64,000 nt of DNA, from positions 6,863,505 through 6,927,504 of the forward strand of contig NC_064434.1 of the NCBI RefSeq assembly GCF_023343835.1, in the 5' to 3' direction. This document shows positions 12,278 to 42,996 of the stretch, one piece after another. Source of the stretch: Lagopus muta. Its lineage: Eukaryota; Chordata; Aves; Galliformes; Phasianidae. Every line of letters begins with the position of its first letter. The stretch's first letter is position 1. Made by a program: the position numbers and the translations under genes. The notes beneath the pieces are model-generated. The model saw only the letters and a program-made list of their open reading frames with translations, was not told where the DNA came from and searched no databases.

Positions 12278-14200
12278 ATGGAGCTGGGAAAGGCGAAACT
12301 GCTGAGAACCGGCCTCAATGCTTTATACCAAGCCATCCATCCTGTGCACGGAATTGCCTGGACAGATGGGAAGCAAGTGATACTGACTGCTTTATACTAC
12401 CATAATGGAGAGCTGAAGTTTGGAGACTCAAGCGTTGTTGGTCAATTTGAACACGTGCATGGGCTTTACTGGGGCCCGTGTTGCTCTACAGAGACCCCAG
12501 CTCTGCTTGCTGTTCAGCATAAAAAGCACGTTAGCGTTTGGCGGCTGGGCCACAGCACTGCGGAGAAAAACAAACCCTTGATTTCTCAGACTTGTGAAAT
12601 CGGTGAGCCGTTCCCATTGCTTTCCCAGGGCTGTGTGTGGCATCCAAAAAAGGAAGTCTTGGCTGTCCTTACAAAAAGAGATGCTTCAGTCTTGCACACT
12701 GTTCGAACGGACAATACCAGAGTTAAGGCAGATATCAAAAGCAGTGGGCTTATTCACTGTGCTTGCTGGACTAAGGATGGTAATCGCTTAGTAGTTGCTA
12801 TAGGCAGCACCCTGCATTCCTATATATGGGATGATGCTCAAAAAACTCTAAATGCCTGCTCCTTTTGCCCAGTCTTTGATGTGGGAGGCTATATCTGTGC
12901 TATAGAAGCCACGCTGGATTTCCAAATTGCTGTAGCTACTGAGCTTCCTTTAGATAATATCTGTGGTTTGAACGCAGGCATTGCATTTGATATGCCATCT
13001 GGTGCTGAAACTAGTTCTTTAACCTCGCAGTCTACTACAGCACTTGGTGATGAAGAGTACTCCATGGACCTGCGAAGAAAGTCCACAGACTCTGACAGAT
13101 CAGGCACTGTTGATTCAATAGCTTCTTCTTCATCAGGTCCTTTGGATTTAACCCACATCCTTGCAAATCACCGTCGGTCTGATCCCAGTCCTCTCATTAC
13201 TCTGAAACGCAAAGATTCTGCAGCAATGAATGGTCAAGATTCTTCTTACCTGATTTTGGTGACTTTTGAAAGGAAGGTAACCACCACCAGAAAAGTCAAC
13301 ATCCCAGGCATTCTGGTTCCTGATATAATGGCTTTTGACCTCAGAGCTCAGATCGTGGCAGTAGCCTCTAATACTTCTAACATTGTTTTGGTGTATTCAG
13401 TAACCTCTTCCTGCATGCCCCATATTCAACAAATCCAGCTGGAAAAAAATGAAAGACCAAAAGGCTTATGCTTTTTGACAGATAAACTCCTATTGATATT
13501 AATTGGGAAGCAGAAATTCCCTGAGCCGAGTCTTATTCCATCTTCAAGTTCGGACAGGTATGTAATGCGCTTGATGATCAAAGAACTGATGCTGGAAGAA
13601 GATGCTTCAACGCTGCCAGACACGAAGCAGCATATGCTTTATAACTTTGTATCGTCTGTGAACATACCTGGAAAAAGAAAGTTCTTTGAAAACCTTGCCA
13701 CAGAAGACCAACATCAAAGCAGAGACCTGTTAATACCAAGAAGTACAGTTATTCAATCTCCCAGCGGCAGGAGAAGACTCATCGAAGAAGTGAAGAGCCC
13801 TAGTTATGAGCAGAGCTCTTCATCAAGTGTTAGTGACTTGGATGAGAAAAAGCTCCCAGGTGACCCCTCTGTTGCCTTAGAAACTTTGGATGCTGAACCT
13901 ATCAATCGTTCAATGGCTCTTCTTGGTTTTGGAACAGCTACCAGGCTTTCCAGCAGACCAGCTGCCCCTAAAGTGCAGTTCAATGTAATTGAAGAAACAT
14001 CGAGTTCTCCTAAAAACAACAATTTGCCAGGTGAAAGAGGCATGAGTCACATATCTAGAAATTTAGAGAGACTCTGTGGCAGTTTCAATGACTTACAACT
14101 GAGTCTTTCTGAAATAACAGACTTTGCTAAAAACGGGAGAAGGGTGTCTTTAGCCTACCCAAGTTCACAAGAGCCACCGGTCATTCATATCACTTACCAG
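12278..14200 (+). CDS. WDCP: WDCP copy 1, main coding exon
   Basis: 1923 coding nt (641 codons) from ATG 12278 to CACTTACCAG, followed by donor GTAAAC. An acceptor CAG at 12255-12257 would leave a 20-nt untranslated leader (12258-12277), exactly the leader length in copy 2. This supports the choice of acceptor, although its pyrimidine tract is modest. Reading into the intron gives only six more residues before TAA at 14219-14221. Confidence 0.93.
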
Positions 14201-42800: not shown

Positions 42801-42996
42801 TGTAAGAGATGCCAGCATGAAAGGCTACAGTGCCCGATCCTCCAAAACTTTAGACATCATCAGTTCCACAGAAGGGTGCAGACATGCTGCTTCTGAAAGC
42901 CTGGATATCACCAGCTCTTTGGAAGTCCTCCGAGACTGCTCCTCCAAGGCTTTGGATGGCAGCAGTCCTTCTGAGCAGCCCAGCAGTAAAATGTAA
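37973..42996 (+). CDS. WDCP: WDCP-type protein, tandem copy 2: join(37973..39850,41254..41371,42725..42996)
   Basis: Second full-length WDCP homologue (C2orf44 family; WD repeats plus coiled coil, reported HCK partner). The joined frame is 755 aa without a stop. The start is the ATG of [18 protein letters not shown], with G at -3 and G at +4; an ATG further left at 37904 falls in the intron. The N-terminal ~230 residues are about 80% identical to copy 1 by eye. The middle holds [15 protein letters not shown] and the shared [19 protein letters not shown] stretch fits a loose class II SH3-binding pattern. A predicted coiled coil lies at about 577-605. All three coding-exon phases equal those of copy 1. 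The last exon has an extended tail of three 17-codon units. The CpG island at 36 kb is its likely promoter and MFSD2B converges from the right. Both copies look functional. Confidence 0.95.
39851..41253. other. Intron of WDCP copy 2 with old CR1 relic
   Basis: GTAACT to TTGCACTTGCAG. Most of its left two-thirds is a degenerate CR1 (39930-40830). A poly-G-rich stretch lies near 41130-41142. Confidence 0.88.
39930..40830 (+). mobile_element. Old CR1 relic with endonuclease-domain remnants
   Basis: Forward frames recall the CR1 ORF2 endonuclease: [12 protein letters not shown] (near 40019-40054), then an [17 protein letters not shown] stretch (near 40270-40310). After these comes [20 protein letters not shown] with [20 protein letters not shown] and [10 protein letters not shown], in the family order. 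Stops and frame changes show decay. A CAATTCTATGATA near 40815-40828 may be its 3' tail after internal loss. The segment at about 40139-40195 reads in the opposite direction. Confidence 0.82.
41254..41371 (+). CDS. WDCP: WDCP copy 2, second-last exon
   Basis: 118 nt between acceptor TTGCACTTGCAG and donor GTACAT. It encodes [33 protein letters not shown] and LVEMQHG. The phase is the same as the matching exon of copy 1. Confidence 0.95.
41372..42724. other. Last intron of WDCP copy 2
   Basis: GTACAT to CTCCACAG, 1.35 kb. No repeat of note; an internal AATAAA lies near 42357. No exon recognised. Confidence 0.88.
42725..42996 (+). CDS. WDCP: WDCP copy 2, last coding exon
   Basis: Starts after CTCCACAG and encodes [19 protein letters not shown], then [18 protein letters not shown], then three 17-residue units to the stop TAA at 42994-42996. 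The 5' part aligns with copy 1; the tail is 35 codons longer. Confidence 0.95.
42841..42993 (+). repeat. Three diverged 51-nt (17-codon) tandem units in the WDCP copy 2 tail
   Basis: Units 42841-42891, 42892-42942 and 42943-42993 encode [34 protein letters not shown] and [18 protein letters not shown]1, L4, D5, S8 and E11 are shared by all three; units 1 and 2 agree at 8 of 17 residues. The third unit ends exactly at the stop codon. Confidence 0.75.

Follow-up and report, generated by a model that had tools for sequence, protein, structure and literature searches.

Very probably, a single WDCP gene lying between FKBP1B and MFSD2B was duplicated in tandem in the ancestry of Lagopus muta, most likely before modern birds arose, leaving two complete genes that are both held by purifying selection. 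The two WDCP-type genes, here WDCP-A followed by WDCP-B, are encoded on the + strand of the window, the 64,000-nucleotide stretch of contig NC_064434.1 that was analyzed, and positions 12278–42996 extend exactly from the first ATG of WDCP-A to the stop of WDCP-B. The spliced gene models give proteins of 736 (WDCP-A) and 755 (WDCP-B) amino acids. Coding exon 1 of WDCP-A (12278–14200; 641 codons; Pfam WDCP E = 0, 1044.7 bits) encodes a putative N-terminal WD-type region, a linker with the motif PLDLT, a Ser-rich region, and a predicted C-terminal helix; exon 2 (22208–22328), which enters in phase 0 and leaves in phase 1, was placed by tblastn from WDCP-B exon 2, its Pfam match, and its splice sites, and exon 3 (26313–26479, stop TAA) by tblastn from WDCP-B exon 3 and its Pfam score in the genome search. 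The corresponding exons of the WDCP-B gene model are 37973–39850 (626 codons; E = 2.4e-297, 988.4 bits), 41254–41371 and 42725–42996 (stop TAA), each with a Pfam WDCP match (31.7 bits for exon 3). Both copies thus have three coding exons with intron phases 0 and then 1, GT/AG boundaries are found at all four introns, and each reading frame has one stop, at its end. The initial annotation had described two complete genes on the same strand, with three exons each, the same phases, and nothing disabling, and the gene models agree with this in full.

The copies differ at their ends. The C-terminal tail of WDCP-B is longer than that of WDCP-A, and at 42820–42993 it contains three stretches resembling one another (33 protein letters, not shown), which are absent from WDCP-A; no tandem repeats were detected at the DNA level in this tail. 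Upstream of the coding sequence, an equal leader of 20 nt had been proposed for both genes: Both copies do have an AG whose end lies 20 nt ahead of the ATG (12257 and 37952), but the sequences at these places align unconvincingly, and a common leader is at best weakly suggested. The leader of WDCP-B as drawn in this way (37953–37982) starts with an ATG, opening a frame of nine codons that runs across the main start codon in a different reading frame; the corresponding leader of WDCP-A has no ATG ahead of its start. If the putative splice site is used, this upstream frame could damp the translation of WDCP-B.

Membership of both copies in the WDCP family is clear from the Pfam profile PF15390 (curated cut-off 25.3 bits), which was scanned exon by exon rather than on the spliced proteins as one piece. 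The exon-1 frames score far above chance, exons 2 and 3 of both copies also exceed the cut-off, and the three coding exons of each copy jointly cover profile positions 1–694, nearly the whole profile. The scores are nearly equal between WDCP-A and WDCP-B for the individual segments (514.5/502.5, 62.3/49.4, 172.9/170.8, and 231.5/201 bits) as well as for exon 2 (42.0/49.6 bits) and exon 3 (29.8/30.5 bits in the genome search). A profile search of the genome (1,026,658,476 bases in 165 contigs; reporting limit E 0.001) gave six WDCP candidates, all six of which were scored and are exons of WDCP-A or WDCP-B; at E 0.001 or better it gave no third copy.

Matches to WD and propeller families were weak, and all remained below the respective Pfam cut-offs (eight families for WDCP-A, three for WDCP-B); from these subthreshold matches we infer that both copies may adopt a WD-type propeller fold at the N-terminus. 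AlphaFold models of the exon-1 products, calculated with a two-sequence alignment as input, are of low confidence (mean pLDDT 28.3 and 30.5), and the helix they place at residues 591–618 of WDCP-A and 571–604 of WDCP-B, a candidate for the C-terminal coiled coil of the family, has pLDDT values below 50. At an E limit of 1, a sequence search of solved structures gave no match to WDCP-A exon 1. Viral contigs encoded no relatives of WDCP-A exon 1 or of the alignment of both copies, prokaryote genome contigs encoded none of WDCP-B exon 1 or of the same alignment, and no RNA family reached its gathering score in the window.

The two proteins are identical at 61% of 717 aligned residues, and their coding sequences at 67% of nucleotides. 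This divergence is distributed unevenly: Alignment columns 1–80, 81–160, and 161–240 show 81%, 73%, and 81% nucleotide and 87%, 69%, and 82% amino acid identity, and the protein identity of 69–87% found over columns 1–240 also holds for columns 321–400, whereas the linker between them (columns 241–320) reaches 45%. Across columns 401–720, the values are 55–63% (nucleotides) and 43–53% (amino acids), with 43–49% amino acid identity in the Ser-rich columns 401–640 and 53% in columns 641–720, and the tail (columns 721–774) falls to 35%. The earlier estimate of about 80% identity in the N-terminal part, and far less in the Ser-rich middle and tail, is therefore accurate. Identical runs of at least four residues in columns 241–320 and 406–643 comprise ITYQ and several others (45 protein letters, not shown). 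Among 184 fourfold degenerate sites compared, 97 differ, corresponding to a distance of 1.01 (bootstrap 0.73–1.57; 8 of 5,000 replicates saturated). There is no sign of recent gene conversion between the copies, because the fourfold distances of five segments (14 to 87 sites each) stay between 0.81 and 1.39.

Outside the exons, which were masked for this comparison, positions 1–30000 and 30001–48000 share 29 matching stretches, and by our judgement every one of them looks like an interspersed repeat of the avian CR1 kind. A duplicated promoter was considered and rejected on this comparison, which gave just these matches. Related repeat ends, approximately 89–90% alike, were observed at 25871–26080 in intron 2 of WDCP-A and at 33502–33707 and 34980–35140 between the genes; they resemble avian CR1 and are probably younger than the duplication.

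An origin of the pair as an assembly artefact, in which both haplotypes of a single gene had been set one after the other, would require these sequences to represent allelic variation. Coding identity of 67% and differences at more than half of the fourfold sites are too much for haplotypes of one species. Moreover, the introns measure 8.0 and 4.0 kb in WDCP-A and 1.4 and 1.4 kb in WDCP-B, and the matches beyond the exons are only repeat-like; the two haplotypes of an individual should be alignable across their introns, so that nonhomologous introns speak against this explanation. We give it next to no credence, and the divergence of coding sequence, fourfold sites, and introns excludes it in practice. 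The duplication is genuine, as the initial annotation had inferred, and the same divergence rules out a recent event, in line with its description as an old tandem duplication.

Codon models show that the divergence accumulated under constraint. Over the whole coding sequence, dN is 0.288, dS 1.38, and omega 0.208 (2dlnL 217.1 against omega = 1); the first 240 columns have an omega of 0.121 with a dS of 0.97, and the linker (columns 241–320) is the most weakly constrained segment (omega 0.337, 2dlnL 9.8). Per-copy values are bounds taken from this pairwise estimate, which is made without an outgroup and assumes roughly equal branches: If all amino acid change is assigned to one copy on branches of equal dS, its omega is approximately 0.42 at most, and approximately 0.67 for the linker alone. 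Because the bound stays near 0.42 even in this extreme case, neither copy would have been neutral for most of its life, provided that the branches are equal. Simulations of neutral evolution, which start from the present sequences and use substitutions only, lead in the same direction: At a distance of 0.1 the frame stayed open in 1 of 2,000 runs for WDCP-A and 3 of 2,000 for WDCP-B, and at distances of 0.25 and 0.5 in none of 2,000 for either copy. Intact frames, the pairwise omega, and these simulations together show both copies to be under purifying selection; the claim that both were kept stands, and an omega near 1 as the lifetime average of one of them is excluded given roughly equal branches.

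That one copy is dying and is intact merely by chance is improbable. The Pfam score of WDCP-B exon 1 is slightly below that of WDCP-A, and the putative WDCP-B leader opens with the short upstream frame described above, both of which could be read in this way; against it stand two open frames with intact splice sites and the rarity of open frames in the simulations at a neutral distance of just 0.1. A very recent loss of constraint in one copy would escape both the frame and the simulation tests.

The position of the pair corresponds to that of the cattle gene. To its left, tblastn with an FKBP1B probe sequence identified FKBP1B-like exons on the minus strand at 3192–3157 (E 0.005) and 1177–1112 (E 6.2e-8), and no further FKBP1B exons in the window. 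The exon at 3192–3157, the FKBP1B-like first exon, lies within a CpG island (2401–3700, from CpG windows), beside which there is a short run of TATGC units (3450–3502). To the right, MFSD2-like exons are encoded on the minus strand at 51030–53181. Ten open reading frames were tested here for the Pfam family MFS_2: Two exceeded the cut-off (51030–51263 and 52978–53181), a third (61691–62224) scored below it, a fourth produced weak matches of other kinds, likewise subthreshold, and the remaining six produced no match. The frame at 52978–53181 matches PDB structures of lysophosphatidylcholine symporters of the MFSD2A type (4.5e-16), and this match together with the position makes MFSD2B the likely identity of the gene. 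The pair is thus placed between FKBP1B and MFSD2B, the neighbors that WDCP (C2orf44) also has in cattle. In the part of the cattle report that lists the gene order, this runs SF3B6, FKBP1B, WDCP, MFSD2B, UBXN2A, with WDCP named once (PMC12075139), and a dog gene list, as excerpted, likewise names a single WDCP (PMC9897549), in contrast to the two tandem copies of Lagopus muta. Both lists agree with a single mammalian WDCP, which the initial annotation had stated for human. The excerpt of a lizard paper names WDCP once in an SNP table, which is uninformative on copy number (PMC10637050).

Crown birds are approximately 90–100 My old, and the amniote split dates to approximately 320 My. The duplication was set against these dates with distances of 0.70, 1.0, and 1.38 and three bird rates given in the excerpted text of two papers: 1.91e-9 (PMC8207802) and 2.3e-9 and 3.6e-9 (PMC8157837) per site per year, giving 97 to 361 My. 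The pair most likely predates crown birds, because this range lies above the crown-bird age, which its lowest corner touches. The dating is rough, since dS scatters between segments from 0.78 to 4.22 and is high where the alignment has gaps or is saturated. Its upper end would fit an alternative that we consider possible but doubtful: The pair would be older than the bird–mammal split, mammals would have lost one copy, and the bird state would be ancestral. Evolution may have been slower in the reptile lineages leading to birds, and such slower rates would shift the date further back. At 1.91e-9, a dS of 1.38 corresponds to approximately 361 My and a fourfold distance of 1.0 to approximately 262 My (excerpt of PMC8207802), whereas the two faster rates place the distances of 1.0 and 1.38 at 139–300 My, after the amniote split (excerpt of PMC8157837). 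The single WDCP named in the excerpted cattle and dog lists is compatible with both readings (PMC12075139, PMC9897549). The duplication could be a gain in sauropsids, archosaurs, or the bird lineage, or an older amniote event followed by loss in mammals; a date before modern birds is the preferred reading.

CtBP corepressors bind motifs of the pattern PxDL[STRK]. One match to it is found in each copy, PLDLT at residue 288 of WDCP-A and PVDLT at residue 280 of WDCP-B, each overlapping a DLTHIL sequence that is identical in both copies and lies within the block of 45% identity. Both motifs fit the pattern of the CtBP-binding PxDLS proteins, differing in that they end in T where those end in S. 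In the excerpted table of CtBP2-bound proteins, human C2orf44 appears with 0, 6, and 7 unique peptides in three columns, and its authors point out a potential PLDLS-like motif in it (PMC4063256). Because PxDLT is kept in both copies and C2orf44 is in this CtBP2-bound list (PMC4063256, excerpt), retention of a CtBP-binding adaptor role by both would be the most concrete functional reading. PxDLT is nevertheless a pattern of five residues and may persist for other reasons. WDCP has reportedly been linked to the kinase HCK by Yokoyama and Miller in 2015, with oligomerization said to occur through a coiled coil. Judged by their sequences, WDCP-A and WDCP-B are most likely related scaffold or adaptor proteins, each with an N-terminal region that is conserved and putatively of WD type, a putative C-terminal helical region, and short motifs, including the CtBP-type PxDLT, kept inside a fast-evolving Ser-rich middle.

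The two genes also differ in their upstream surroundings. A CpG island at 35501–36600 (from CpG windows), 1.4–2.5 kb before the WDCP-B ATG, contains a donor-like CAG|GTGAGG with its GT at 36005, and is a candidate for the promoter and an untranslated exon of WDCP-B. CpG windows gave no island close to WDCP-A, and no upstream exon or promoter was found for this copy; its transcription may start at the FKBP1B island (2401–3700) 9 kb upstream, which would then be a shared start, or close to the first coding exon. With WDCP-B having an island of its own and WDCP-A adjoining that of FKBP1B, separate islands are a plausible basis for divided expression. We suggest, tentatively and with somewhat less than even confidence in this functional part, that both copies were retained through divided expression domains together with the divergence of linker and tail. 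The more extensive proposal, in which amniotes ancestrally had both genes, mammals lost one of them, and birds still have two CtBP-linked WDCP scaffolds whose promoters are separate and whose roles are divided, appears unlikely.

WDCP is little studied, and most of the listed papers in which it is named give it no more than a passing mention, in several cases as a fusion partner of ALK in cancer (the ALK fusion in the excerpt of PMC4695188); among the keyword matches listed for WDCP and its aliases, no title concerned this duplication. The pair represents a real and old duplication of a known gene, of an ordinary kind and of specialist interest. Gene labels reading "WDCP" in birds may mix two genes. 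If the pair is ancestral and its roles are divided, human WDCP biology would cover only part of the ancestral function. A second copy under similar constraint also makes possible a natural comparison to show where WDCP is important: Both copies keep the N-terminal region, the block with PxDLT, and one further block (12 protein letters, not shown), and the rest drifts.
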